DNA from: Prevotella sp.
GTDB lineage: Bacteria > Bacteroidota > Bacteroidia > Bacteroidales > Bacteroidaceae
Length of the DNA: 43,360 bases
Direction of reading: 5' to 3'
Assembly (NCBI GenBank): GCA_017443345.1
Contig: JAFSNR010000013.1
Coordinates: 1 to 43,360 of the forward strand
The notes under the pieces were generated by a model, which was not told the origin of the DNA, ran no database searches, and worked only from the letters and a program-made list of their open reading frames with translations. The position numbers and the translations under genes were made by a program. Positions 407-13,639 of this stretch are shown piece by piece; the first letter of the stretch is position 1; each line of letters opens with the position of its first letter.

Positions 407-2395
407 TCATATCCCAGTGGATTTTATCTTGGCATAATGTCCATGACTGGTATGTTCCACCAGCTGATACCGGCTGATCAGGTTGCCAAGATATCTCTGA
501 GCTGATTTAAGCGGTATGCTCAACTCTTTTGCTGTCTGTTCAAACTGTTTGGTGACAAAATCGTCTGGCAGTGCCATATAAAGCTGACTTTCCTTGGCCT
601 TCATCGGCTGTATAGTCAGTTGCGGGTCATCAGATGGACGCAACAATGTGGAATAGACGTAGGCGGTATGGCGTACCAGGCAATCGATGATTGTCATAGC
701 TGTCTGATAGTCATCATCCGTACAGACAAAAGCCTGCTGTTGAGTGTCGGCGAGGTTACCCTGTTCGAAGTTGCGCAGCGTGGTGAGCACCATCATCATT
801 CGGAAGGCTACGAGTGCTATACGTACAACAAAGGCAGCGAATTCCACGCCATAGAGTCCAACCTGTTCAGGCAGAAGCGGTTTAAAGTGGTTATTGAAAG
901 CCTGCTGCTGCTCTTCTGTAAGAAGTATCTGAATGCGTTTCTCCTTGCGACATATTAGTAGGTCGTACATCTGCTTGATGATTATCCCTATCTCCTGATA
1001 GCGGTCGCCAAGAGGTTCTTTTCCCCTGAATGGATCACGCCATTCGAGATTCTCCTTGCTACAGTAAAAGAGATCGCGCGAGCTGGTGCCGTTCTCGTTC
1101 TGCTTAGGCGAGAGCAGGTATGTAATCTGCTTGGGCGTGCAGGTAACGAGCATTCCCAACTGAGGTTCGTCGATGACAATATGTTGTTTGTCTCTGACTC
1201 TTGTCGAAGTGATCGTCTCATGATGAAATGCCTGTCTCAAGGCATCAGTCCATGCTCCCCATTCCTGAGCCAGTGCCTGCGTGAGTGTGTCGGCCTCGGT
1301 CGTGAATATCATGCCGCGCCCGCCGAAACTATGGAGGTCGGACTTAAAAGCTGCTGACGAGCTGTCTGCCGATACGAAAAGGCTGCGATAAATGGGTTCT
1401 TCAGGTTCTGCACCAGCCTCCTCACTGCCCTTTCTGTGCTGCGACTTTCTGGCCTCCCAGGCGGCATGCTGCTCTTTGTAGTCGGCCAGCTGCTGATAGT
1501 AGCTTGCCCGCAGTGAACGCTCAATAGGTGTCAGCAAATGCTTGATGTCATCGATGGAACCTTTTTGACTGATTCCGGCAGGACCGAGGATAAAGAGATA
1601 GAAAGGCGTGTAAACACGCTTGTCGCCATAGATGCCGTAGACGTTGGGCTCTGCGATGGCCAGCAGGTCAAGGTCGGCGAGTATTGTCTTGTCCTGTTCT
1701 TCGAACGACTCCTTGCCCTCCAGGGTGTGCTGTATGGTGACCGGCAGTCGGTTCTTGTCGATATGCTGGCTGAAGGTCTGACTGAACGAAAACCTCAAAA
1801 CCTCAATATCCTCACCGCTGTCTGCACCAGTTGCACAAGCCGTGTAAGAGGAAGAATAATTATTGTTATTATTCTGATTATTAACAGATTGACTATTGCC
1901 TAAAGCACAGTTTTTCTGATTGGTGTATTTTTCTACAGAGCTGTGAGGAAATTGAGGTTTTGAGGTAAAGTCAGCTGAAGGATACTGGCGCGAAATGGCC
2001 GAGAGGTCTACTCCGTAAGACTTTGCCATCTCGTAGAATGTAGCGATATGGATGCTGCGCTTCTTGTTGTTTGTAGCCCATTTCCACTGGTACTCGAAAT
2101 CGCTTTCCTGATACTTCGCACTCTGCTGGCACAGTTGGCGACAAAGTTCCTTGCCGTCATCGCCCAGGTCGACCATCGCCTCAATCAGACGATAATAGTC
2201 ATCTTGGCTTTCAGCGATGTTGGCTCCGTGCTGCAGCAGTTCATTGCATACGGCGCGGGCCTTTTCCAACTCGTTGTCGGCTAAAGCAAGACTGTCGCTA
2301 GCAGGGTTAGACACAGAAGCTGCCGTCTTTTTGGGCAGCTCACTTTCACTTCCGGCATTGACCCACTGTGTTGGGTCGAAATTCTTCTTTTCCAT
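407..2395 (-). CDS. DUF3987 helicase/primase-associated protein
   Basis: This 662-residue protein is the last gene of the minus-strand operon. The central region has the DUF3987 layout: VYGIYGDKRVYTPFYLFILG, then a glycine-rich nucleotide-loop-like segment GPAGISQKGS near residue 270. Later come GGRGMIFTTEADTL and a stretch around VTCTPKQITYLLSP. DUF3987 proteins are regarded as helicase-like ATPases acting with a primase, and here the gene lies 12 bases after the BT4734-like primase gene. The loop has Q where the family normally has G before the lysine, so ATP binding may be altered. The N-terminal 200 residues contain an Asn-rich linker (NSQSVNNQNNNNNYSSS). The C-terminus (ELSIPLKSAQRYLGNLISRY) resembles a winged-helix replication-protein tail. 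Family assignment is fairly secure, while the role is inferred from context. Confidence 0.8.
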   Translation of the reverse strand: MEKKNFDPTQWVNAGSESELPKKTAASVSNPASDSLALADNELEKARAVCNELLQHGANIAESQDDYYRLIEAMVDLGDDGKELCRQLCQQSAKYQESDFEYQWKWATNNKKRSIHIATFYEMAKSYGVDLSAISRQYPSADFTSKPQFPHSSVEKYTNQKNCALGNSQSVNNQNNNNNYSSSYTACATGADSGEDIEVLRFSFSQTFSQHIDKNRLPVTIQHTLEGKESFEEQDKTILADLDLLAIAEPNVYGIYGDKRVYTPFYLFILGPAGISQKGSIDDIKHLLTPIERSLRASYYQQLADYKEQHAAWEARKSQHRKGSEEAGAEPEEPIYRSLFVSADSSSAAFKSDLHSFGGRGMIFTTEADTLTQALAQEWGAWTDALRQAFHHETITSTRVRDKQHIVIDEPQLGMLVTCTPKQITYLLSPKQNENGTSSRDLFYCSKENLEWRDPFRGKEPLGDRYQEIGIIIKQMYDLLICRKEKRIQILLTEEQQQAFNNHFKPLLPEQVGLYGVEFAAFVVRIALVAFRMMMVLTTLRNFEQGNLADTQQQAFVCTDDDYQTAMTIIDCLVRHTAYVYSTLLRPSDDPQLTIQPMKAKESQLYMALPDDFVTKQFEQTAKELSIPLKSAQRYLGNLISRYQLVEHTSHGHYAKIKSTGI

Positions 2396-2407
2396 AGTGA
2401 TAATATT

Positions 2408-3004
2408 TTAAAAGTATTCAAACAATTCGGGTTTGAGATAGCAGTGAGAATCATGGCCGAGGAAACATCCTCTCGACTCGTTGACCACCTGTTTGTCACA
2501 TTGTATATTTGTCAGTTTATATTGCTGCATCACATAATTCCTAATCGCAGTAAACCATGTGCGATGGTCGCACTTTGTGAGTTCAACGGGCACCCACCAT
2601 TTTAATCCGCGTCCGCGAGGCGAGCGGAATAACAGCAGTGTCTCAAAGTAGGAATCCTTCAACAGTTTCTCCTTCAGCTCCGTTACTGGGTCACCGTTCT
2701 CCTCATCAATCTCCGATGGCAGACAGAGATAATCCAGATCCATACAGACGACTTCAGATGCAGTCAGTTGTTTGTCATCACTGGCATAGCTGAACGTTCC
2801 AGCTGGGGTCACCCAGTCGAAGTTCTTGTCTTTAAAAGCCTTTTGGGCTTTCTCGTCAGTCATTGCACGAAGTGTTTTCTGCGTTTCCATTGCTCTTGGA
2901 CTGACCTCATAGCGGTAAATGTCAAACAATGAGATTTCACCACAAGGAATGTGGTTAAAAATTGGTCGACGGAAAGCTGATACTATGTTTTTTCTAATTT
3001 CCAT
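2408..3004 (-). CDS. BT4734/BF3469-like (VirE N-terminal) primase-polymerase-like protein
   Basis: This 198-residue protein fits the BT4734-like family (once called VirE N-terminal), which is related to archaeo-eukaryotic primases. Three signature regions are visible. VTPAGTFSYASDDKQL is followed by the acidic motif VVCMDLDYL near residue 90. Then comes FRSPRGRGLKWWVPVEL, the glycine-lysine loop. Near the C-terminus is CDKQVVNESRGCFLGHD. It sits between a small unknown gene (10 bases upstream) and DUF3987 (12 bases downstream), the standard order for this pair in Bacteroidetes. The likely job is primer synthesis or DNA polymerisation with the DUF3987 ATPase. Many relatives are single proteins carrying both domains, whereas here they are separate genes. 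Confidence 0.8.
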   Translation of the reverse strand: MEIRKNIVSAFRRPIFNHIPCGEISLFDIYRYEVSPRAMETQKTLRAMTDEKAQKAFKDKNFDWVTPAGTFSYASDDKQLTASEVVCMDLDYLCLPSEIDEENGDPVTELKEKLLKDSYFETLLLFRSPRGRGLKWWVPVELTKCDHRTWFTAIRNYVMQQYKLTNIQCDKQVVNESRGCFLGHDSHCYLKPELFEYF

Positions 3005-3014
3005 TTTATTCTTA

Positions 3015-3320
3015 TTATCTATTAGTTGTCGGGAACATTAAGTCTTTAATACCTTGGCTCGATGCACTTTTCAAGATCTTTCTGTAAAGCTGTCTGAGTA
3101 GTTTGTCGATGTCCTGATCTCCGATTTGCCGTTGTCCGAGACCAGCCATACAGTCAATTAGACAATCGACAACAATGACAGCAGTTAGTTGATTAAAGCC
3201 TTGTAAAGCATCAATCATCTCGCTACGTAGTTCACATGGTATCCAAAAGGGCATGCATTTGGTTAGCATTCCGACTGCAATAGGATCAGGCGCTATTTTT
3301 TTATAGAATTCACTTTTCAT
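3015..3320 (-). CDS. Small unknown protein heading the primase operon
   Basis: A 101-residue protein begins MKSEFYKKIAPDPIAVGM and ends KDLMFPTTNR. I do not recognise the family. It is predicted to be soluble and mostly helical, with four cysteines and no signal peptide. It is the promoter-proximal gene of the minus-strand operon and ends 10 bases before the BT4734-like gene. Genes in this place in Bacteroidetes primase cassettes are often small regulators such as DUF4248, but this sequence does not show the DUF4248 pattern I know. The TACATTTG box at 3339-3346 supports transcription from just upstream. Confidence 0.65.
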   Translation of the reverse strand: MKSEFYKKIAPDPIAVGMLTKCMPFWIPCELRSEMIDALQGFNQLTAVIVVDCLIDCMAGLGQRQIGDQDIDKLLRQLYRKILKSASSQGIKDLMFPTTNR

Positions 3321-3338
3321 TTTTCTCTATTTTTTTTG

Positions 3339-3346
3339 CAAATGTA
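3339..3346 (-). promoter_or_regulatory. -7 element of the primase operon
   Basis: TACATTTG on the minus strand lies 19 bases upstream of the first gene of the operon. A near match to the -33 TTTG (CTTG on the minus strand) lies at 3367-3370. The element overlaps the out-of-frame tail of the neighbouring coiled-coil gene. Confidence 0.5.
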
Positions 3347-3365
3347 CGACTCGTTTTCTGAAGTT

Positions 3366-3480
3366 TCAAGGAAATATTGGAATCTGTGTCCCCATCAAAA
3401 ATGCATCATCAATGGGCGTAGTTCCTTTATTTATCGACATCTCAAGATGGTTGAAGGTCCCGAAGTTGTTATGTCCCCAC
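3366..3480 (-). pseudogene. Out-of-frame C-terminal tail of the coiled-coil gene
   Basis: After the stop of the upstream reading frame, the +1 frame stays open to the TGA at 3366-3368. It reads KKWGHNNFGTFNHLEMS, then INKGTTPIDDAFLMG and TQIPIFP. The composition looks like real protein. It joins the upstream frame in the run of seven A at about 3481-3487, where losing one A would give a continuous protein of about 202 residues. This is either a frameshift mutation, a base-calling slip in a homopolymer, or slippage during transcription. Confidence 0.55.
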
Positions 3481-3975
3481 TTTTTTTATTGTGTTCCGAT
3501 ATATAATCTTTTTAAGGGTATCCGCTTTTCCTAGATTGCTATGCTCAGATAAATACATTAGAACTTGCCGTTGACTTATTTTAAAGAGAGAAGTGTCATC
3601 TTTCCATGTCTCATCTAAAGCCAGAAGGATTTGTTTCTTATTGGCAAGATTAAATTCGAAACGGGCCGTTGTTTTAAGGTCAAGTTTCTCATCAGAAGAA
3701 TTCTGCCATATATCAAATAACTTTTTAAGCTTGTGTAATTGGCTCATATTAATTAGTTTTATCATTGGCGTGTCTTCGTCCCATGAGAATGTTTTATTCC
3801 CAAGATTCCTTAGCTTTCGTTTACGAGATTCAAGTTCTTCAATCGCTTTCCGACTCTCTTTGATCTCTTCCTGATTCAATTTGATTCTTTCCCAAAGTTC
3901 ACCAATCAGGCGATTAATCTCTTCAATCTTAATCTTTTTGGCTCCTGCCTCCTTGTTCTTTTTCACTTTTGCCAT
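3469..3975 (-). CDS. Unknown coiled-coil protein, probably frameshifted at its 3' end
   Basis: A 168-residue basic protein starts MAKVKKNKEAG. I chose the ATG at 3975 over the longer frame to 4047, because a TAACTTTG promoter box (4012-4019) lies inside the longer version. Residues about 15-60 form a charged coiled coil (GELWERIKLNQEEIKESRKA). The second half has aromatic and basic patches and ends NTIKKVGT. No family is recognised. The frame closes just after a run of seven A, and a coding-like tail continues in the +1 frame to 3366. The gene stands alone between the primase operon and the divergent smalltalk operon. It could be a regulator or a structural partner, but nothing visible decides this. 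Confidence 0.6.
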   Translation of the reverse strand: MAKVKKNKEAGAKKIKIEEINRLIGELWERIKLNQEEIKESRKAIEELESRKRKLRNLGNKTFSWDEDTPMIKLINMSQLHKLKKLFDIWQNSSDEKLDLKTTARFEFNLANKKQILLALDETWKDDTSLFKISQRQVLMYLSEHSNLGKADTLKKIIYRNTIKKVGT

Positions 3976-5216: not shown

Positions 5217-5669
5217 ATGGAAACAGGAACCAAGTTGATTGAAGAACTTATTGCAGCCGTTCTGGATGATTTCAGGGAGAAGGGCTTTTCTTCCGTGATG
5301 CCTTTCAGTATTGGAAGCGTGGAAATCAGAATGTCCCAATTTGCTGATGCCAATGGGATAGAACTTGCCAGCGAAGAGCTCTATATGAGTGCCAAACAAC
5401 TACAGCATAGTATGCGGGCTTCAAAGAATGTGAAGGGATTGGTGGTAGAAGCCTCAGAATTGATTTCTTTTCCGGAAAGCCGTTTTTCGATGGATCTGTA
5501 TTACGATGGCAAGTGTTTCATTTATACTGATGGGAAGTCGAAATTTATTATCCATCCCAACTACAAAATGAAAATTAGCAGAGAACTTGTTGCAAAAGTG
5601 AATTTCATTACAGCTACCAGAGTGAATGATCCTGCCGAATTCACATTGCCCAAATACCGAAAAATATAA
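5217..5669 (+). CDS. Unknown protein, 150 residues
   Basis: The protein starts METGTKLIEELIAAVLDDF and ends DPAEFTLPKYRKI. I chose this ATG because a promoter-like TACTTTTG lies just upstream. The longer open frame from 5085 has a non-protein-like N-terminus and would include that box. The fold is probably mixed alpha/beta: an N-terminal helix, a middle section (VEIRMSQFADANGIEL), and beta-rich segments such as RFSMDLYYDGKCFIYTDG and VNFITATRVN. There is no signal peptide or membrane segment. The closing FxLPKYRKI resembles the tail of several small phage-type nuclease domains, but this hint is too weak to assign. It stands alone and ends at the hairpin at 5671-5692. Confidence 0.6.
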   Translation: METGTKLIEELIAAVLDDFREKGFSSVMPFSIGSVEIRMSQFADANGIELASEELYMSAKQLQHSMRASKNVKGLVVEASELISFPESRFSMDLYYDGKCFIYTDGKSKFIIHPNYKMKISRELVAKVNFITATRVNDPAEFTLPKYRKI

Positions 5670-5805
5670 AAGCTGGCCACACGTGACCAGCTGTAATGGA
5701 GTGAAAGTAACCAAGCGGCAAGGTCGAATTGCTCATCATCTCTGCGTTTCCGCAGCCATGCCACCGTTCCGCACATCGTGGCTCTACCTGGTTTCCCCTT
5801 TCACG
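5665..5805 (-). ncRNA. Compact structured RNA of about 140 nt, unassigned class
   Basis: A consensus promoter (5809-5840) and a terminator (5671-5692 followed by a U-rich tract) define an independent minus-strand transcript. Its predicted 5' end falls at a closing helix: 5798-5804 pairs with 5701-5707 (seven pairs). Next, 5787-5793 pairs with 5709-5715 (seven pairs with one wobble). Inside are a hairpin 5778-5782/5760-5764, and a 5-bp hairpin capped by a GAAA tetraloop (5751-5755/5742-5746). A weaker hairpin is at 5729-5732/5718-5721. The result is a multi-branch junction closed at the transcript ends. It does not match SRP RNA, 6S RNA, tmRNA or RNase P as I know them. The only overlapping frame, 71 codons, runs through the terminator into the neighbouring gene and is not convincing. 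Confidence 0.6.
5671..5692. terminator. Bidirectional terminator between the 5217 gene and the small RNA
   Basis: Stem AGCTGG/CCAGCT, extended by two further pairs across one mismatch, has the loop CACG. On the minus strand it is followed by TTTATATTTTT, a good rho-independent end for the small RNA. It also lies directly after the stop of the plus-strand gene. Confidence 0.75.
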
Positions 5806-5808
5806 TTG

Positions 5809-5840
5809 CAAAGATAGGCATTTTTCTCTTTCACTCCAAA
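5809..5840 (-). promoter_or_regulatory. Consensus promoter of the structured RNA
   Basis: On the minus strand TTTG (5837-5840), 20 bases and TATCTTTG (5809-5816). The predicted start lies a few bases downstream, at the closing helix of the RNA. Confidence 0.75.
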
Positions 5841-5900
5841 TATTTCCAATCTTTTTTGCAATTATTTCACTCAAAGCGCACTTTATTCCAATTATTTTTG

Positions 5901-5908
5901 TACTTTTG
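5901..5908 (+). promoter_or_regulatory. -7 element upstream of the structured leader
   Basis: TACTTTTG lies about 335 bases upstream of the helicase ATG. It points away from the small RNA promoter. No TTTG is found at the standard -33 distance. The predicted start is near 5911, at the base of the first helix of the leader. Confidence 0.5.
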
Positions 5909-5910
5909 CA

Positions 5911-6240
5911 ACAAGTATCGCCAAATCGTCGTAAACGACGCAAGCTACGGCTAGGGGCTCTGAGCGCAGGGTGGCGGTATGATTTTTGCGGAATAAACAT
6001 AGCGTTAGTGCTATATTCGGAATGTCCAAGAACCTAGGAAATTCAAAAGACATATATGAACGAATAAGTACCAACGTCTACGCGATAGCGTGGACAGGAC
6101 TTATCTTCGTATATGGGTTTTCCTAGGACCTTTGGACATTGATGAGCGCCGGTTCGCGCTTTTCCGTGTCCTTAGGTTCTATGTTATGAACCCATTTTCA
6201 TCCGAATAGATAGTCCTTTCGCTCCTAAGACTATAGCGTA
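5911..6240 (+). other. Large structured leader or RNA upstream of the truncated helicase
   Basis: No convincing gene lies in these 330 bases, but paired segments cover most of them. 5916-5922 pairs with 5973-5979 and encloses a CGTCG/CGACG hairpin (5927-5940). 6014-6021 pairs with 6201-6208. Inside is a long nested hairpin from 6021 to 6140, with helices 6021-6029/6132-6140, 6033-6041/6119-6127, 6051-6056/6110-6115 and 6064-6069/6099-6104. It is capped by 6076-6083/6088-6095 around a GATA loop. Further hairpins are 6175-6179/6188-6192 and 6210-6215/6229-6234. It could be a riboregulatory leader, a stand-alone RNA such as a retron-like element, or a DNA-level recombination structure. No reverse transcriptase or integrase is present. 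Confidence 0.55.
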
Positions 6241-6243
6241 GAT

Positions 6244-7191
6244 ATGGCAGACATACCTATTTCTTCCCATTTCTTCACTAACAGGGATGGGAACACATTG
6301 ATGAAAGAGTTTGAGGGCATTCTTCTGAATAACCCTCAAGTGAAGAACCTTGATGCTGTTGTGGGCTTTCTTCGAGCATCAGGCTATTTTTCCTTACGCC
6401 CATTTCTTGACGGCATCAACAAAGTACGCATCCTGATTGGCATCGATGTAGATAAGTATATCGCCCGCGCCCACCAAAAGGGAGAACTCTTCTTTGGAGC
6501 AGAAGAGGAAGTGAAGGAAGAATGCCTGAGACTGTTGAAAGAGGACATCGAGCAGTCGCACTATACCAAGAAGGTTGAGGACGGTATGCTCCAGATGGTG
6601 CAGGACTTGATTGACGGTAAGTTGGAACTACGTGCCCATCCCTCCAAGAAGATTCATGCCAAAATCTACATTCTTTATCCCGATAATTACAACCAGCATT
6701 GTTTTGGTGCAGCCATTACTGGTAGTAGTAATCTAAGCGGCAACGGCTTGGGTATCACAGAAGAAAGACAATATGAGTTCAACGTCAAACTGACGCAGTA
6801 CGACGATGTGCAGTTTGCCAAGAACGAGTTTGAACTGTTGTGGGAAGAGGCCAAGAATGTGCCCATCAATGCCGAGGACTATCAGGCCACACTCGATAAG
6901 ACTTACTTGAAAGGCGACGTCACCCCCTACGAGCTATACATCAAGATGCTGATGGAATACTTCAGCGACCGCGTGCTGGCCATCGATCAGGACGACCCCT
7001 TCGACATGCCTGAGGGCTACAGCAAGTTCGACTATCAGGCAGATGCGGTGATAGAGGGCTATCAGAAACTGATACGCTACGACGGTTTCTTCCTCGCTGA
7101 TGTAGTGGGTCTTGGCAAGACGGTCATCGCCACGATGATTGCCAAGAAATTCCTGATTGAGAATGGTAAAATAATAAAGTTTGCTAATTAA
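6244..7191 (+). pseudogene. Phospholipase D-like / SNF2-type helicase, truncated after Walker A
   Basis: Only 315 residues remain of a protein normally near 1,000. Residues about 1-200 form a phospholipase D-like domain with the half-motif IHAKIYILY (His near 138) followed by GSSNLSGNGL. The region around residue 250-290 leads into a helicase start: FDYQADAVIEGYQKLI, then FLADVVGLGKTVIATMIAKK, which contains the Walker A GLGKT. The frame then ends ENGKIIKFAN, with no Walker B and no second RecA domain. Relatives accompany an Eco57I-type methyltransferase in Bacteroidetes defence loci. Here that partner is found 3 kb downstream, beyond a restriction-modification cassette. The break lies within about 20 bases of the sequence preceding the cassette promoter. 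The residual protein could still bind or cut DNA but cannot act as a motor. Confidence 0.8.
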
Positions 7192-7226
7192 TGAATTAAA
7201 GATACTGATAATTTAGTTAAAAGTTG

Positions 7227-7234
7227 TATCTTTG
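7227..7234 (+). promoter_or_regulatory. -7 element of the restriction-modification cassette
   Basis: TATCTTTG lies 15 bases upstream of the methyltransferase ATG at 7250. No clear -33 TTTG is seen. The short leader fits the tight start-site spacing seen elsewhere in the window. Confidence 0.5.
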
Positions 7235-7249
7235 CAAAAATTATCAGTT

Positions 7250-8548
7250 ATGACAGAAAAGAAAATAAGCGATGACCTAAAACTTGAAGCCTTCCCCGAG
7301 GATGTTACTGAGGACGGCATCAAGATATATGGTGAAACTTCATACGAGAACCAGATTGCGACGCTGAGCCACTATCTGCATAATACTGATTTTGAAGGTA
7401 CGCAGGTTGAAGTACAGGAACGGCGCAATGAAATGATGGCCCTTATCCGTGAGTTTCTGGAGCATAAAGAACAATTGCAGAACTATACAGACGAGGACAT
7501 TGCCCGCGCTGCTGAGTGTCCGCTGGAGTTCGACTTGTTCCGTGAATTCTATCAAGTACCATTCCCCAGTCCCAAAACATACGACCATACTTTTATTGAT
7601 TTGTTCGCTGGTATCGGTGGTATTCGCATACCATTTGACGAAATGGGTTATCATTGCGTGTTTAGCAGCGAATGGGACGCAAAGGCCTGTCAGACTTATT
7701 TCGCCAATTTTGGCACCGTACCCTTCGGCGACATAACGAAGATACCCGCCACAAAGATTCCCAAGCACGACGTGCTTTTGGCAGGCTTCCCTTGTCAGGC
7801 ATTTAGCATCATGGGTAAAATGCAGGGATTCGCTGATACTCGCGGCACGATGTTCTTTGAAATTGAGCGTATTCTGAAACATCATCAGACACCCTATATC
7901 TTGTTAGAAAATGTCAAGCAGTTGGTTACTCATGATGGCGGACGAACTTTTGAAGTAATAAAAGAAAAACTCGACCAATTGGGATATTATATAAAATGGA
8001 AGGTAATGAATGCCCTCGATTTCGGACTGCCGCAGAAACGTGAACGAGTTATCATCGTCGGATTCAAACACCAGGAAGATTGCGATGCTTTCACCTTCGA
8101 TATTCCGCATACGCCATACAACCTCGCTGATATTCTGGAACCTGACGAGAATGTTGACCCGACGCTTTTTGCTTCAGACCATATTATAGCAAGGCGACGC
8201 GAAAAGACTGAGGGCAAGAAATTGTTCTATCCTTCTATCTGGCATGAGAACAAGGCGGGCAATATTTCTGTGCTTGACTATTCTTGTGCATTGCGCACAG
8301 GAGCCTCTTACAATTATTTGCTCGTAAACGGAGTGCGCCGACCAACTTCTCGCGAGTTGCTCCGATTGCAAGGATTCCCTGAGAAATACTTGATAGCCGT
8401 CTCAAATCAGGACATTCGCCGACAGACTGGCAACAGCGTGGCCGTCCCGATGATTAGAATGGTTGCACAGAAGATAAACGAAATAATCAAAAACCGAGAA
8501 TATGGAACATCCGAAACTCAGAGACTCAAAGCGACTGTTAACGCGTGA
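7250..8548 (+). CDS. DNA (cytosine-5)-methyltransferase of a type II restriction-modification system
   Basis: A 432-residue C5 methyltransferase transfers a methyl group from S-adenosylmethionine to cytosine in a specific site. The motifs appear in order: FIDLFAGIGGIRIPF (motif I, near residue 116), LLAGFPCQAFSIMGK with catalytic Cys182 (motif IV), LLENVKQL (motif VI, near 219), QKRERVIIVG (motif VIII, near 262), and RRQTGNSVAVPMI (motif X, near 395). About 110 residues precede motif I, longer than in minimal enzymes, and include a charged helical stretch (EVQERRNEMMALIREFLEH). I chose the ATG at 7250 over a TTG at 7232 that lies in the promoter box. The 3' end overlaps the first endonuclease gene by 47 bases. 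The enzyme should protect the host from the endonucleases encoded next. Confidence 0.92.
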   Translation: MTEKKISDDLKLEAFPEDVTEDGIKIYGETSYENQIATLSHYLHNTDFEGTQVEVQERRNEMMALIREFLEHKEQLQNYTDEDIARAAECPLEFDLFREFYQVPFPSPKTYDHTFIDLFAGIGGIRIPFDEMGYHCVFSSEWDAKACQTYFANFGTVPFGDITKIPATKIPKHDVLLAGFPCQAFSIMGKMQGFADTRGTMFFEIERILKHHQTPYILLENVKQLVTHDGGRTFEVIKEKLDQLGYYIKWKVMNALDFGLPQKRERVIIVGFKHQEDCDAFTFDIPHTPYNLADILEPDENVDPTLFASDHIIARRREKTEGKKLFYPSIWHENKAGNISVLDYSCALRTGASYNYLLVNGVRRPTSRELLRLQGFPEKYLIAVSNQDIRRQTGNSVAVPMIRMVAQKINEIIKNREYGTSETQRLKATVNA

Positions 8549-9236
8549 GCCTTACCCCATCAACGAAATTCCAGAGGAGGTCATTAGGAAAATTGGCCGC
8601 AAGTTCATCTATATGCTCTGTGTAGGTCATAAGGACTTGACTGGCGATGACTGGGGCAACGTATTCGCCGAGGCCATCGGCGGTGAGCATCTGCAATCGC
8701 CCGTTGGAATAGCCGATGTCGTGTTTGACAAGATGGCATGGTCGATGAAGACTGTCAAGACACCAAACCCACACCGAAACGAGGCTTCTATCCGCCTCAT
8801 TAGCGGTCGATGTTCTCCTGACTACTCCTATGGCATCACCGACCCACACGAGGACATTGAGAAGACTGGCCGTGCCGTGCTGAACATTTGGAATGAGCGC
8901 GTCAATATTGCTCAGGACTATTACAATCCTTTGCGCACATCTATTCTTGTCCGCTCGAACGACCTGCTGACTTATACTCTTTTCGAGGAAGAGAACCACC
9001 GCTATGTAGCCAACCAATACCGTTGGGAAGAAAACCGCAACGGCAATCTTATTGGCATTGACATTGAGAGCGGCGAGACCTGCTTCACCTGGCAACCTCA
9101 TGGTTCACAGTTCACCATCCATACACGAGTGCCTCAGAACGCTGTGAAGTTCAAGATTAAGCAGCCGCCAAAGCTTGACGTGGAGGAAACGCTTAAGCAG
9201 ATAAACTACTCGGACGATTGGGTGGAAATCCTGTAG
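8502..9236 (+). CDS. Type II restriction endonuclease, paralogue 1
   Basis: This 244-residue protein starts inside the end of the methyltransferase gene, so translation is probably coupled. I do not recognise the exact endonuclease family. The block GDDWGNVFAEAIGGEHL followed by VGIADVVFDKMAWSMKTVK looks like a PD-(D/E)XK-type active site, with an Asp in IADV and a Lys in SMKT. The C-terminal half is beta-rich (ETCFTWQPHGSQFTIHTRV). The protein shares the same layout and over half of its residues with the next gene, which ends NYSDDWVEIL-like as well. Position directly after a C5 methyltransferase supports the restriction role. Codon use resembles the host's ordinary genes. Confidence 0.72.
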   Translation: MEHPKLRDSKRLLTREPYPINEIPEEVIRKIGRKFIYMLCVGHKDLTGDDWGNVFAEAIGGEHLQSPVGIADVVFDKMAWSMKTVKTPNPHRNEASIRLISGRCSPDYSYGITDPHEDIEKTGRAVLNIWNERVNIAQDYYNPLRTSILVRSNDLLTYTLFEEENHRYVANQYRWEENRNGNLIGIDIESGETCFTWQPHGSQFTIHTRVPQNAVKFKIKQPPKLDVEETLKQINYSDDWVEIL

Positions 9237-9275
9237 GTGTATTAACATTAACTTGTATTCTTCAGCACTTTGGTT

Positions 9276-10016
9276 ATGAAACAACTGAGATTAAGAGATT
9301 CGGGAAAACTAAAATTGCAAGAATTATATTCCATTAATCAATTCCCGGAGGAAATAATTAAAAAAATTGGCAGGCAAATCGTCTACCTAAAATGTGTTGG
9401 ACGGAAAGACATCTCTGGTGATGACTGGGGAGATATCTTTGCGGATGCCGTCGGAGGTACTCATCTGAAATCTACTGTTGGGATTGCAGATGTTATTTAT
9501 GATAAGATGGCTTGGTCGATGAAAACGATAAAAAACAGTATTCCTCATACAACAAGATCCAAGCCGCGTTTAATTATGGGAAGAAATTCGACCGACTATT
9601 CTGTGGGTATTCCAGATCCACACAAGGATGTTCAAGCGACGGGTGATGCGGTTTTACAAATATGGAACAAGAGAGTTGACATTGCTTATCAAGATTATAC
9701 TTCGGTAAGAACGGGAGTACTTATACGAAATTTTGACAATCTCACTTTTACTTTATTCGAGGAAGATACAAGACGTTTCGTTCCTAGCGAGTACGAATGG
9801 GAAGAGAATGATGGAGGTAATTTTGAAGGATATGAAATTGAAACGCAACAGCATCGTTTTACATGGCAACCCAGCGGTTCTCAATTTTCAATATATACTC
9901 ACATTCCCAAGAATGCATTCAAATTCAAGATAAGGATACCACCTTTATTAGATATTAATAAAACGTTAGAACAAATCGACTATTCAGATGATTGGGTTGA
10001 AATAGTAAGGCAGTAG
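9276..10016 (+). CDS. Type II restriction endonuclease, paralogue 2 (AT-rich)
   Basis: A 246-residue paralogue of the preceding protein starts at the ATG at 9276 (a TTG at 9270 is possible), 39 bases after the first gene. It keeps the core blocks ISGDDWGDIFADAVGG and VGIADVIYDKMAWSMKTIK, and the tail DYSDDWVEIVRQ. The nucleotide sequence is much richer in A and T than paralogue 1, so a recent duplication in place is unlikely. Two related endonuclease genes beside one methyltransferase could form a heterodimer, recognise different flanks, or leave one copy redundant. A strong hairpin (10036-10083) follows the stop. Confidence 0.7.
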   Translation: MKQLRLRDSGKLKLQELYSINQFPEEIIKKIGRQIVYLKCVGRKDISGDDWGDIFADAVGGTHLKSTVGIADVIYDKMAWSMKTIKNSIPHTTRSKPRLIMGRNSTDYSVGIPDPHKDVQATGDAVLQIWNKRVDIAYQDYTSVRTGVLIRNFDNLTFTLFEEDTRRFVPSEYEWEENDGGNFEGYEIETQQHRFTWQPSGSQFSIYTHIPKNAFKFKIRIPPLLDINKTLEQIDYSDDWVEIVRQ

Positions 10017-10035
10017 ACTTATACATTACTACTTG

Positions 10036-10083
10036 TGAATCCACTTTAATAATCGGAATATCCGACTTATTAAAGTGGATTCA
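10036..10083 (+). terminator. Long perfect hairpin at the end of the restriction cassette
   Basis: A 17-bp perfect stem (10036-10052 with 10067-10083) is extended by an inner TCGGA/TCCGA helix. There is no T-run after it on the plus strand, so it may be a terminator of unusual form or a border element. The truncated adenine methyltransferase frame opens about ten bases beyond it. Confidence 0.6.
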
Positions 10084-10133
10084 GTCAACGGTGATTTCAG
10101 CAGTTCGAGAAACTGCGTGACAGCAGCCTCACG

Positions 10134-12938
10134 TTGAAAGACCTTACCAAAGCCTTCTCTGTGGATGCTGTCAGCGATATGTTCTTCGATGGCTACAAGA
10201 AGCAGTATGAGGACATTATCCAATATATCACGGGTAAGCGAATGGTAAAGGTGGCCAACAAGTGGGAAGAGCAAATCAAGAACGACCCCTGCGAGGAAAT
10301 CATGCAGGAGTTTGCCCACTTCCCAAATCCAGAGAAGGCTGTTCGCGACTATGTGAAGAAGCTGATGGGCCGCCTTGTGTTCCTTCAGTTCCTACAGAAG
10401 AAAGGATGGCTGGGTGTGCCTGCAGGTGCAGAATGGGGAACGGGCGATGCGGAGTTCATCCAAACCCTCTTCGCCCAATGCCAGGATAAAGACCACTTTA
10501 TAGATAATGTGTTGGAACCTCTATTCAACGACCTGAACACAGAGCGCGAAGGTGATAATTGTCAATTATCAATTGTCAATTGTCAATTCAAGGTTCCATA
10601 CTTGAATGGTGGTTTGTTTGAACGTGATGCGACTGATGAGACAGAATTCCCTCTGCCTGCTAAGTACATGCAGAGCCTGCTTGACTTCTTTGCCTCCTAC
10701 AACTTCACTATCGACGAGAACGATCCTGACGATGCAGAGGTAGGTGTTGACCCAGAGATGTTAGGTCGCATTTTCGAGAACCTGCTGGAAGATAACAAAG
10801 ATAAGGGTGTATTCTACACACCAAAGGAAATCGTCAGCTATATGTGTCGCGAAAGCCTCATTGCTTATCTGCAAACAGACATTGAGGATGAACCTACGAA
10901 GGAAGCCATTCGCCAGTTCGTGACCACTCATGACAAAACGAAACTAAGCGCAGCCACTCCCCTCCCTTCAAGGGGAGGGGCAGGGGTGGGGTTTGTAATT
11001 TCTCTGTCTTCCTGTATTGACCAACGACTGAAAGATGTTAAAATCTGCGATCCTGCTATTGGCTCTGGTGCATTCCCAATGGGCTTGCTGAAAGAACTCT
11101 TCCAATGCCGTACAGCCCTTGAAGGAATTACACAAAGCAAAGCCGCAGAAATCAAGAAGCACATCATCCAGCAAAATATCTATGGTGTAGATATCGAGCG
11201 TGGTGCCGTTGATATCGCCCGCCTCCGTTTCTGGCTCTCCTTAATTGTGGACGAAGAAACGCCACAGGCTTTGCCAAACCTCGACTACAAGATTGTAGAA
11301 GGTAACTCGTTGATAACTACTTTCGACGGCCAGTACATAGATCTGTCTACAAATATTGGAATGAGCAGATTACGTTCAAGCCTTGTCAGGATAAGACCTG
11401 AGAAGAAAGCATTACAGGCAGAACAAAAACGTTTCTTTACGTTGTCTGGTGATGAGAAATACCGTTCAGAAATTGCCATCAAGAATCATATTCTTAACAT
11501 TATCTGGTACCAGCTTGACTATGAAAAACATTCTTGGGAAGATGCAACGGTAGAGCAGGCTGGATTGTTTGGTACTACCACAACAAAAGGCCGTAAGAAA
11601 AATGCAGCACAAGTTGTTGAATTCACACAAGAGCGTCAAACGGTACTTGCCAAGTGTGAGAAATTGATGGCAGAACTGAATGATGAAAGCAAATCTCTAC
11701 AAGAAAGAGCAAACATCACTATTCCTTTCTTTGAATGGGTAACAATTTTCTCAGATATTTTTGATAGTGAGAACAAAAATGGTTTTGATATTGTGATAGC
11801 CAACCCGCCATATGTTGACTCAGAAACGATGACAAAGAATATGCCCGAATTACGCAATAGGTATAGTAATATTTATCAAACTGCGTGCGGTAATTGGGAT
11901 ATGTTCATAATATTTATAGAATTAGGAATGAATTTATTAAAAACCAAAGGAGTTCTATGTAAGATTATTCCAAATAAGTTGATTGCAGCAAAATATGGAC
12001 AAGAATTAAGAAATTATATTGCAAAAAAAGAAGTTATAGAGGTTAGGGATTATAGCAGAATAGATGTATTTACCAATGCAGCAGTTTACCCTATAACAAT
12101 AATTATGAGAAATAGTGATAGCGAAGTTGCTAGTCATTTTACTATTATGGATGATATAAATAGAGTGCGACAAACAAATGAAACAACTTCTCATTCATTG
12201 AAAGAATACGATAATTGGGATTTATTCTTTGCAGAAACTAAGATATTCAACCTAATTAATAAAATAAATAACCATCCAAGATTATTTAATATGGATGTTG
12301 ATATCTTGGGTGCAGCAACTGTAGCAGATGCTTACGAAATAAAGAAATTAGTAGAAGAGGAAGATTCCACGCATTTGGGTTTTAAACTTATTAATTCAGG
12401 AACAATAGATCCATATCAGCCTTTATGGGGTATAAAAACATGCAGATATATTAAAGGTGGTTACTTAAAACCTATTGTGTCAAAAGATAAATTGCAACAA
12501 TATAGTAGGACTCGTTATCAACAGGCAAATTCTTCAAAAATTGTTGTTGCAAGTATGACTATTCGCTATGAAGCATATTTGGATATTGATGGTAATTACA
12601 TTGCGGGTAAATCTACAACTATTATTTTGGGACCTATAGATGAATTATATTATTATATTGGTATAATTAATAGTAAATTAGCATCTTTTTGGCTAAACAT
12701 TACTTTCAATTCTCTCAAAATGTCTGGTGAAGCGATAAATGTTGGAAGGAATGAATTGGGATTGTTGCCTATTCCTAAGAAACAATTTGATTTTAAACAA
12801 ATTATAAATAGGATTATGGAAGAAAAGAAATATAATCCTTCTGCAGACACTTCTGCCTTAGAATCCGAAATCGACCGCCTTGTCTATCAGCTCTATGGGT
12901 TGACGGAAGAAGAAATCAAAATCGTTGAACAATCATAA
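10134..12938 (+). CDS. Eco57I-type adenine-specific DNA methyltransferase, N-terminally truncated
   Basis: The coding frame is open from 10095 and reads FQQFEKLRDSSLTLKDLTKA before the first usable start (TTG 10134 or ATG 10179). Relatives have roughly 200 more N-terminal residues, so the beginning is missing. The rest is intact. GVFYTPKEIVSYM leads into SAM-binding motif I, CDPAIGSGAFPMG (near residue 306). The catalytic NPPY motif is in DIVIANPPYVDSE (near 557). A target-recognition region and a C-terminal tail (SEIDRLVYQLYGLTEEE) follow. The enzyme should methylate adenine as the modification part of a BREX/type IIG-like or helicase-linked restriction system. The part from about 11800 to 12840 is markedly AT-rich, suggesting exchange of the recognition domain. 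Two repeat insertions lie in frame (10558-10588 and about 10956-10991). Confidence 0.85.
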   Translation: MKDLTKAFSVDAVSDMFFDGYKKQYEDIIQYITGKRMVKVANKWEEQIKNDPCEEIMQEFAHFPNPEKAVRDYVKKLMGRLVFLQFLQKKGWLGVPAGAEWGTGDAEFIQTLFAQCQDKDHFIDNVLEPLFNDLNTEREGDNCQLSIVNCQFKVPYLNGGLFERDATDETEFPLPAKYMQSLLDFFASYNFTIDENDPDDAEVGVDPEMLGRIFENLLEDNKDKGVFYTPKEIVSYMCRESLIAYLQTDIEDEPTKEAIRQFVTTHDKTKLSAATPLPSRGGAGVGFVISLSSCIDQRLKDVKICDPAIGSGAFPMGLLKELFQCRTALEGITQSKAAEIKKHIIQQNIYGVDIERGAVDIARLRFWLSLIVDEETPQALPNLDYKIVEGNSLITTFDGQYIDLSTNIGMSRLRSSLVRIRPEKKALQAEQKRFFTLSGDEKYRSEIAIKNHILNIIWYQLDYEKHSWEDATVEQAGLFGTTTTKGRKKNAAQVVEFTQERQTVLAKCEKLMAELNDESKSLQERANITIPFFEWVTIFSDIFDSENKNGFDIVIANPPYVDSETMTKNMPELRNRYSNIYQTACGNWDMFIIFIELGMNLLKTKGVLCKIIPNKLIAAKYGQELRNYIAKKEVIEVRDYSRIDVFTNAAVYPITIIMRNSDSEVASHFTIMDDINRVRQTNETTSHSLKEYDNWDLFFAETKIFNLINKINNHPRLFNMDVDILGAATVADAYEIKKLVEEEDSTHLGFKLINSGTIDPYQPLWGIKTCRYIKGGYLKPIVSKDKLQQYSRTRYQQANSSKIVVASMTIRYEAYLDIDGNYIAGKSTTIILGPIDELYYYIGIINSKLASFWLNITFNSLKMSGEAINVGRNELGLLPIPKKQFDFKQIINRIMEEKKYNPSADTSALESEIDRLVYQLYGLTEEEIKIVEQS
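10558..10588 (+). repeat. Heptamer repeat inside the adenine methyltransferase gene
   Basis: Four units of seven bases, three ATTGTCA and one ATTATCA, plus a partial fifth. They are read in frame as CQLSIVNCQF. Confidence 0.8.
10956..10991 (+). repeat. G/C-rich palindromic insertion inside the adenine methyltransferase gene
   Basis: A CCCCTCCC tract, a TTCAA spacer and GGGGAGGGG form a palindrome, followed by CAGGGGTGGGG. It is read in frame as PLPSRGGAGVGF, between residues that are not conserved. Similar G/C palindromes are scattered in Bacteroidetes genomes. Confidence 0.65.
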
Positions 12939-12972
12939 ATAAAGGCGATATGACGAAGCATCCTGAGGTGAC

Positions 12973-13563
12973 TCACTCCTCATCCTCCTTAGGCAGTATA
13001 AAGCCAATGGGCCTGCGATTCTTTAAGGTCGCACTTTGCGACCTTGAAGCCTGTAGCTCAGATAAAGCGAGGCTGATAGCATCGAGTTGGGCACGAGTGC
13101 TTTCATTGATGTCATTCTGGTCGGCAAGAATCTCGTTTACCTCTTCTTTGAGTTTGTATAGTTCCTGGGCCAAAGTAACCACTTTCTCAGGAAGGGTGGA
13201 GAATGTAAGCATTTGTCGCATAGCAACAAACGCTCTTGTAATCTTGATGCTTGTTTCATCGGCAACGGGACTGCGAAGTACACTTGATAGCATCAAGGCT
13301 CCAAGTTCCGTGAAAGCGTATGGAAGAGATTTCTTGGGGCGTTTCATTCTTGATGTCATCACAAATTGTGATGAGATAAGGCTCCATTCCTGTTCGGTCA
13401 ATTGGAACATAAAATCATTGGGAAATCTTCTGGCATTGCGTTTGACCGTTTGGTTAAGAGACCTAGTCTCAACCTCATACAGCATAGCAAGGTCGAAATC
13501 GAGCATCACGCGCTGTCCACGAATGATGTATATGAGGTCTTGGATATTTTGTAATTCGTCCAT
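12973..13563 (-). CDS. ORF6N (KilA-N-like) domain protein
   Basis: A 196-residue protein. Residues about 5-95 form an ORF6N DNA-binding domain: IYIIRGQRVMLDFDLAMLYE, then VKRNARRFPNDFMFQLT, and FTELGALMLSSVLRS. The C-terminal half is a coiled coil (LAQELYKLKEEVNEILADQ) with a basic, proline-ending tail. The domain is common in phage and mobile-element regulators. In Bacteroidetes it is often inserted between restriction genes. It lies opposite to its neighbours, converging with the methyltransferase gene, and has its own promoter (13585-13615). It may regulate the island or act on invading DNA. The family assignment is firm, the role is not. Confidence 0.88.
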   Translation of the reverse strand: MDELQNIQDLIYIIRGQRVMLDFDLAMLYEVETRSLNQTVKRNARRFPNDFMFQLTEQEWSLISSQFVMTSRMKRPKKSLPYAFTELGALMLSSVLRSPVADETSIKITRAFVAMRQMLTFSTLPEKVVTLAQELYKLKEEVNEILADQNDINESTRAQLDAISLALSELQASRSQSATLKNRRPIGFILPKEDEE

Positions 13564-13584
13564 TGTCTTATTTTATTTCATCTG

Positions 13585-13615
13585 CAAATTTAAGAAATTT
13601 ATCTGAACTGACAAA
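13585..13615 (-). promoter_or_regulatory. Promoter of the ORF6N gene
   Basis: On the minus strand TAAATTTG (13585-13592) with TTTG (13612-13615) 19 bases upstream of it. The leader is about 20 bases. Confidence 0.65.
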
Positions 13616-13639
13616 CAAATAATAAAAATTTCTATCAAT

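Follow-up and report, generated by a model that had tools for sequence, protein, structure and literature searches.

How does a compact restriction-modification (RM) unit come to occupy the middle of another defense system, and is such an exchange a single event or a recurrent one? The question is raised by a 43,360-nucleotide contig of Prevotella sp. (JAFSNR010000013.1, assembly GCA_017443345.1), analyzed over its whole length and called the window below. Between positions 6244 and 12938 of its forward strand, the first part of a phospholipase D (PLD)-SNF2 helicase gene and a gene for an Eco57I-type adenine methyltransferase (MTase) without its start enclose a C5 cytosine DNA MTase gene and two putative restriction endonuclease (REase) genes. 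We consider it probable that the helicase/MTase pair is a slot for defense cassettes, the middle of which is exchanged by recurrent replacement that is partly spread by homologous recombination. Directly observed are the segment lost, the junctions on either side of it at base resolution, a further genome in which both junctions are shared, and five loci whose cargo and junctions differ.

Comparison With Intact Relatives

The intact state is represented by locus L023, where the frames of a helicase of 1107 aa and an MTase of 1082 aa lie 5 bases apart. When matches above 60 bits are counted, 62 of 113 loci (a set in which a few contigs are present twice) match the window on both sides of the cassette, and in 53 of them the match breaks off at 7166/7167 and picks up again at 10096–10098. 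Of the remaining nine, eight are more diverged, and the last, L040, is itself replaced. At the place where L023 has 2854 bp, encoding helicase residues 309–1107 and MTase residues 1–149, the window has 2929 bp of other DNA, made up of the C5 MTase gene, two tandem REase-like paralogues, and a hairpin. An earlier reading of the window from its sequence only had proposed one replacement event that swapped one defense system for another in the same slot, with breaks near 7175 and 10095, and the intact side-by-side relatives place these breaks at 7166 and 10096. The replacement is thus borne out with base-exact junctions, although a single event is indistinguishable from an insertion with a later deletion; the swap is likewise supported, whereas the one swap described belongs to a slot that is recurrent.

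Conserved families of short helicases and short MTases in genomes without a cassette, which would have spoken against that reading, did not appear. The genus sample has the PLD part at E ≤ 1e-20 in 57 of 398 genomes, and the helicase frame stops at about 317 aa in the window's genome and in G040 alone, both of which bear the cassette. Other short helicase frames in this sample end at contig ends by their coordinates (and were left out of the counts) or carry small frameshifts, except for a 121-aa remnant elsewhere in G040. Among 80 Eco57I loci from named genomes, one (again L040) is without the motor and has both sides on the contig, the rest having the motor, being cut by a contig end, or being too diverged. 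Relocation of the motor was rejected: in the window's own assembly (92% complete), the motor was not found elsewhere and only distant helicases occur (best E 1.8e-13).

The retained N-terminal part of the helicase, delimited by alignment with intact relatives, spans 308 codons (6244..7166, + strand) and includes the PLD region and Walker A without the motor. The left junction is at 7166/7167, and alignment with L107, L023, and L042 shows that the codons beyond it are foreign and end in a stop (7167..7191, +). The resulting 315-aa open reading frame (ORF; 6244–7191) holds the PLD region and the start of the SNF2 motor, with GLGKT opening its final 27 residues, in line with the earlier observation that the protein ends right after Walker A. 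In the profile search, the PLDc_2 match (PF13091, 8.9e-6) is slightly below its cut-off, as is PF09565. The protein identity of the stub to the intact G613 is printed as 100%, with 90.3% nucleotide identity over 5894–7166, and a single nonsynonymous difference separates it from L042, the locus that matches the window identically.

The right junction is at 10095/10096, where homology to L023 picks up at codon 150 of its 1082-aa MTase. The Eco57I-type adenine MTase gene (10096..12938, +; PF07669, 5.6e-35) is therefore without its first 149 codons relative to L023, as the sequence-only reading had noted in describing an MTase that lacks its usual N-terminus. Its frame begins just past a TGA at 10092–10094, and the earliest in-frame start codon is a TTG at 10134. 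Without start and N-terminus, the MTase is probably silent or an orphan.

The Probable C5 Restriction-Modification Cassette

The C5 cytosine DNA MTase of the cassette (7250..8548, +) has an M.HhaI-like core that is extended by about 110 aa at the N-terminus (PF00145, 1.5e-87, 294.5 bits against a cut-off of 22; M.HhaI chain, 5e-65). Its end overlaps by 47 bp with REase-like gene 1 (RE1; 8502..9236, +), which is followed by its tandem paralogue, REase-like gene 2 (RE2; 9276..10016, +; 58% identity to RE1), and the same tandem occurs in G040 and G689. RE1 has no family match at 0.001–0.01, the RE family is nameless in Pfam, NCBIfam, and PADLOC searches, and no solved structural relative was found for RE1 or RE2 (best E 0.75); a structure model from two sequences (pLDDT 36) was too poor and was not used. 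Homologues of RE1 occur in 11 of 398 genus genomes (one of them, G618, having a remnant) and in 4 of 393 genomes of the order sample, with the window's genome counted in both. Every one of the 13 genomes in which the homologue is full-length encodes a C5 MTase next to it, in surroundings that mostly differ by eye, although L140 and L141 share theirs. This association suggests a REase function for RE1 and RE2, and the cassette, with an ordinary type of cargo, is by all appearance an ordinary compact mobile RM unit. Its completeness, as claimed in the earlier reading, is likely, with the REase part predicted by association.

In L134 of G689 (5405–6889, compared with window 8502–10016) the RE tandem lies beside one C5 MTase. 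Since RE1 is 85% and RE2 63% identical between this genome and the window, RE2, the second copy, seems to be old and faster evolving. The cassette closes in a long, terminator-like hairpin without a T run (10036..10083, +), just as had been proposed; it has perfect 17-bp arms and a folding energy of −32 kcal/mol (z −7.0, equalled by 0 of 200 shuffles), and its G040 counterpart has z −6.0. The promoter that had also been proposed is partly supported. A putative −7 element ahead of the C5 gene, TATCTTTG at 7227..7234 (+), is kept in G040, and we take it to be a Bacteroidota-type −7 motif, but a sigma-70 scan of 5900–10300 returned 6 sites (7.7 expected) and none in 7167–7250.

No second copy of the cassette was found in the window's own assembly, where the next C5 match is at 39% and RE homologues occur at this locus only. 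A plasmid origin of the REase family was set aside as no plasmid record was found, and so was a phage origin: one 8.9-kb phage record (36% identity) came up, and a pattern matched one viral contig stretch, but no viral contig encodes a relative. L142 of G618 (6291–7697) holds a truncated relative of the window's C5 MTase, which breaks off at about 191 aa. A NO VEIN-domain gene comes next, of the REase only a remnant is present, and this RM unit may itself have been replaced. In L144 of G312, an ORF adjoining the C5/REase pair (6152–6568) has by eye the look of what is presumably a Vsr (very-short-patch-repair) endonuclease.

Recurrence of the Replacement

Five further loci retain the N-terminal helicase part together with a start-less MTase that resumes downstream in the right orientation, the motor and the MTase start being replaced by other cargo. 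L040 came from the loci of named genomes, and opening the short helicase frames that by their coordinates do not lie at contig ends revealed the other four. In L040 (CACXUM010000051.1, genome G789), where the comparison covered the best 14 loci, 208 helicase codons are kept, the MTase resumes near codon 68, and the cargo, on the opposite strand, consists of a HpaII-type REase (PF09561, 8.5e-125) and a C5 MTase (3.2e-98). L205 (G809) keeps about 184 helicase codons, and its cargo is a C5 MTase (3.7e-84) and an NgoBV REase (PF09564, 1e-67) in the same orientation as the host genes. About 141 codons remain in L209 (G848), followed by one opposite-strand gene of 506 aa without known function and a mere fragment of the MTase. 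L204 (G812) retains about 244 codons and carries DUF2971/PDC-S31 (1.5e-28), PLDc_2 (2.6e-21), and zinc-ribbon genes on the opposite strand. In L217 (G818), with about 113–117 codons kept, an AbiLi/PDC-M38A-like ATPase (AbiLi, 4.4e-59), a DUF3226 protein (4.2e-9), and a NucC-like nuclease (DUF6602, 3.5e-25; NucC, 3e-14) are encoded on the opposite strand and a 385-aa protein of unknown function on the same strand. Loss and gain relative to an intact reference are 2914 and 2507 bp in L040, 3130 and 2696 bp in L205, and 3148 and 1662 bp in L209; relative to L091, they are about 3.5 and 3.7 kb in L204 and about 3.9 and 4.0 kb in L217. With six events that brought different cargo to one place in related genomes, the locus behaves as a defense-gene exchange locus. 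The PLD part is present at E ≤ 1e-20 in 38 of 99 genomes of the genus of G789 and at E ≤ 1e-15 in 43 of 173 genomes of its family, five of the 43 (G789, G809, G812, G848, and G818) being replaced.

On the left, the six events break the helicase at residues of about 117, 141, 184, 208, 244, and 308 (of 1107); on the right, the MTase is broken at about 67, 85, 121, 150, 286, and 296. Three cargoes lie wholly against the host genes, that of L217 mostly so, and two with them. The longest repeats between cargo ends are 6–8 bases (direct) and 5–9 bases (inverted), and no recombinase was found among the cargo genes scanned. Because junctions and orientation differ, we take the six replacements as independent events and not as site-specific integrations. 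L204 and L217 have a neighboring gene in common (267 aa, 76% at the DNA level), which suggests that a single site carries different cargo in these related genomes.

Two additional loci were not counted as events. In L230 (G344; reversed orientation, 1439–3916), a 333-aa helicase stub extends past Walker A before it ends, and the next gene is a Schlafen-AlbA_2 gene; no MTase was found in the 12 kb read, and the locus, of which only the left half is seen, is possibly half of another slot event. L227 is a weak relative (E 1.7e-11) in which helicase matches flank a gap. L230 and L231 belong to a set of nine loci that were read for their short frames.

A Second Genome With the Same Junctions

In G040:C36 (L107), both junctions are the same as in the window. 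The two are 98% identical in the C5 MTase and RE1 and 92% in RE2, against 85% in the PLD part and 83% in the MTase start; along the locus, identity runs at 71–78% over 6200–6600 and then at 84–100%, mostly above 90%, to about 10400. Synonymous divergence (dS) is 0.45 in the 3′ part of the PLD region (the 5′ part being saturated), 0.09 in the C5 MTase, 0.10 in RE1, 0.36 in RE2, 0.41 in the first part of the Eco57I-type MTase, and 2.3 further on. The core of this MTase was lost in G040 after the replacement. Because identity and dS vary along the locus, with low dS in C5 and RE1, we read the window and G040 as one replaced allele that would have been cut and exchanged by homologous recombination, the C5–RE1 core having presumably been exchanged recently.

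Possible Origin of the Exchanges

A former defense pair of a PLD-SNF2 helicase and an Eco57I-type adenine MTase would thus have traded its middle for a compact type II RM unit. Each first capture may have been an illegitimate recombination, since the end repeats are at most 9 bases, no recombinase is annotated among the cargo genes, and breakpoints and orientations differ. Cassette alleles may later move by homologous recombination, as the helicase end and the MTase end are conserved and usable as arms, and the mosaic of the window and G040 fits such movement. A helicase-dependent defense would in this way be swapped for a self-protecting RM pair, in which the C5 MTase marks sites and the REase-like proteins would cut unmarked DNA, and the old pair could no longer work as before because its motor is gone. 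A stronger version, in which the conserved ends of the pair form a standing socket, landed cassettes are traded by recombination at the ends, the ends are under selection as arms, proteins, or both, and the motor must go, is put forward only tentatively.

Several points weigh against recurrent replacement as the explanation. The search was seeded with the helicase N-terminus, which places cargo between two whole genes or inside the MTase alone outside its scope. Within the genus sample of the window, 2 of the 57 PLD-bearing genomes are replaced, which counts as a single event, and the slot is rare outside one genus; in the order sample (PLD part in 52 of 324 genomes), selection by frame length led to five short frames being opened and to no complete slot case among 51 besides the window's own. 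The REase activity of the two genes in the window is assigned by association only, and, because the cargo of L209 is without known function (its MTase is also broken), recognizable defense cargo is present in five of the six events. The confinement of the breaks speaks for a slot, the chance that all six left breaks fall before residue 309 being 8e-5 (uniform over 100–1107), and 5e-4 for the right side, but the null is crude in that it assumes independence and uniformity, and the confinement may reflect the need to lose the motor for the newcomer to be retained. Finally, in trees of 70 and 59 distinct arm sequences, the left arm of the window clusters with those of three other alleles (support 0.70), that of G040 falling in the next larger group, while the right arms of the two pair with support 0.0. 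A single origin of the replacement in the window and G040 is unproven because the left arms are not exclusive sisters and the right-arm support is 0.0.

The most serious alternative to recurrent replacement, doubtful in our view, divides the event into two steps, with an RM unit first inserted into the helicase gene or where the two genes meet; what was left of the motor, and the MTase start, would then have been lost as useless sequence. Its plausibility comes from L182, L207, L208, and L103, where motor-bearing helicase genes carry disrupting lesions that are small and not the same (near residues 700–747 in three and near 920 in one), so that the motor often seems dispensable, and from the G040 MTase, which lost more after the event. 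However, none of the seven replaced loci (the window, G040, and the five others) has leftover motor sequence, in a search that did not cover cargo between two whole genes, and in five of the six events the lengths lost and gained differ by no more than about 15%. The small lesions were also considered as phase variation of the helicase, which was rejected since those of L182, L207, and L208 are different indels without homopolymers and that of L218 lies at an NN gap.

A somewhat less likely alternative is that the PLD stub still works as a protein and is kept for its own function, as may be the shortened MTase. On the window branch, the PLD stub has 14 synonymous and 1 nonsynonymous changes and the MTase start 23 and 1, where neutrality is assumed to give about 3 nonsynonymous per synonymous change and 12 to 81 positions per comparison were set aside as ambiguous; moreover, the stub frames are open in both the window and G040. 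These counts suggest that the fragments were constrained for most of their branch, which does not imply constraint today. In contrast, the MTase start of G040 has 6 synonymous and 9 nonsynonymous changes and its core is deleted, the intact control allele L033 itself has 10 and 11, the stubs of L209 and L217 end inside the PLD domain (homology to residues of about 141 and 113–117), and the arm trees allow a recent descent of the stub from intact alleles. Purifying selection as proof of a working stub was demoted to this alternative on account of the L209 and L217 stubs and the arm trees.

Site-specific integration, with the slot as the attachment site of a defense-carrying mobile element, would account for the same segment being struck at least six times, yet the breakpoints differ by up to hundreds of bases on both sides, both orientations occur, and the six junction pairs are all different. 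The locus also lacks the marks of an integrase or transposon hotspot, having no fixed junctions, end repeats of 5–9 bases, and no recombinase among the scanned cargo. This explanation is very improbable, being largely refuted by the differing junctions. An assembly chimera is more improbable still, for although the named relatives are mostly contigs of metagenome-assembled genomes and the window's genome is in 204 contigs, two genomes with 83–85% flank identity have the same two junctions, and the other five loci have their flanks in correct order and orientation around different cargo.

Downstream Features

Within the Eco57I-type MTase gene, an in-frame, GC-rich, repeat-like stretch (CCCCTCCCTTCAAGGGGAGGGG) lies at 10934–11028, where L023 has other sequence, and a run of TCAATTG-type units occurs near 10545–10590. 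An ORF6N-domain gene follows at 12973–13563 on the − strand (PF10543; PADLOC PDC-S05). It is not present in the G040 locus, which is unmatched from 12957 to 13618, and L023 matches up to 13518; no flanking repeats were seen by eye.

Comparison With Known Defense Loci

The intact pair of L023 resembles DISARM in that it joins a PLD region and a DrmD-like helicase (PADLOC C3a139 [HKD+Snf2], 2.6e-43; DrmD, 1.6e-33) with an MTase whose nearest models are of type IIG (REase_MTase_IIG, 7.2e-86) and which is also DrmMI-like (1.3e-26). It differs from DISARM in its fused PLD and in a DrmD score of 142.1 bits, far under the cut-off of 610. It was not recognized as BREX either, as the L023 MTase scores 73.5 bits against a PglX cut-off of 500.

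For the enteric immigration control region, the reference is reportedly the 2004 work of Sibley and Raleigh. Exchange of defense genes at a common place is known, as are mobile RM units. In Escherichia coli, different restriction and defense genes take each other's place in the immigration control region (yjiA–yjiN) and in the leuX hotspot #37, much as in the slot of the window; there, the anchors are boundary genes outside the defense systems or a tRNA/integrase, whereas the anchors in the window are the ends of a defense pair that is destroyed by each swap (PMC12707154). Similarly, RM, CRISPR, Abi, prophage, and other elements interchange at a variable locus of Streptococcus suis, for which the excerpted text does not describe anchors inside a defense gene pair (PMC5398294). 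PrrC, which is embedded in a type IC RM locus, is also a defense gene inside another defense locus; its trigger is the inhibition of the RM enzyme of its host locus, so that this enzyme is present there, whereas the host system of the window loses its motor (PMC12707154). RM units move between genomic places, also via crossing over at 1–3 bp of identity, and resemble the cassette in this respect, although the corresponding excerpt does not tie them to one recurrent slot in another defense system (PMC3031569).

At the level of titles and abstract openings, no prior description of such a slot was found in the literature searches made. Fast turnover of defense genes has been known from islands whose anchors are boundary genes or integrases. 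A second defense system, opened at its motor, is the anchor here, and the junctions differ among the six cases. The locus makes it testable how RM units without a transposase enter chromosomes, and whether the destruction of a resident defense system is the preferred way for an incoming RM unit to settle. Compared with the known loci, what is new is a recurrent, destructive slot walled by the ends of another defense system.

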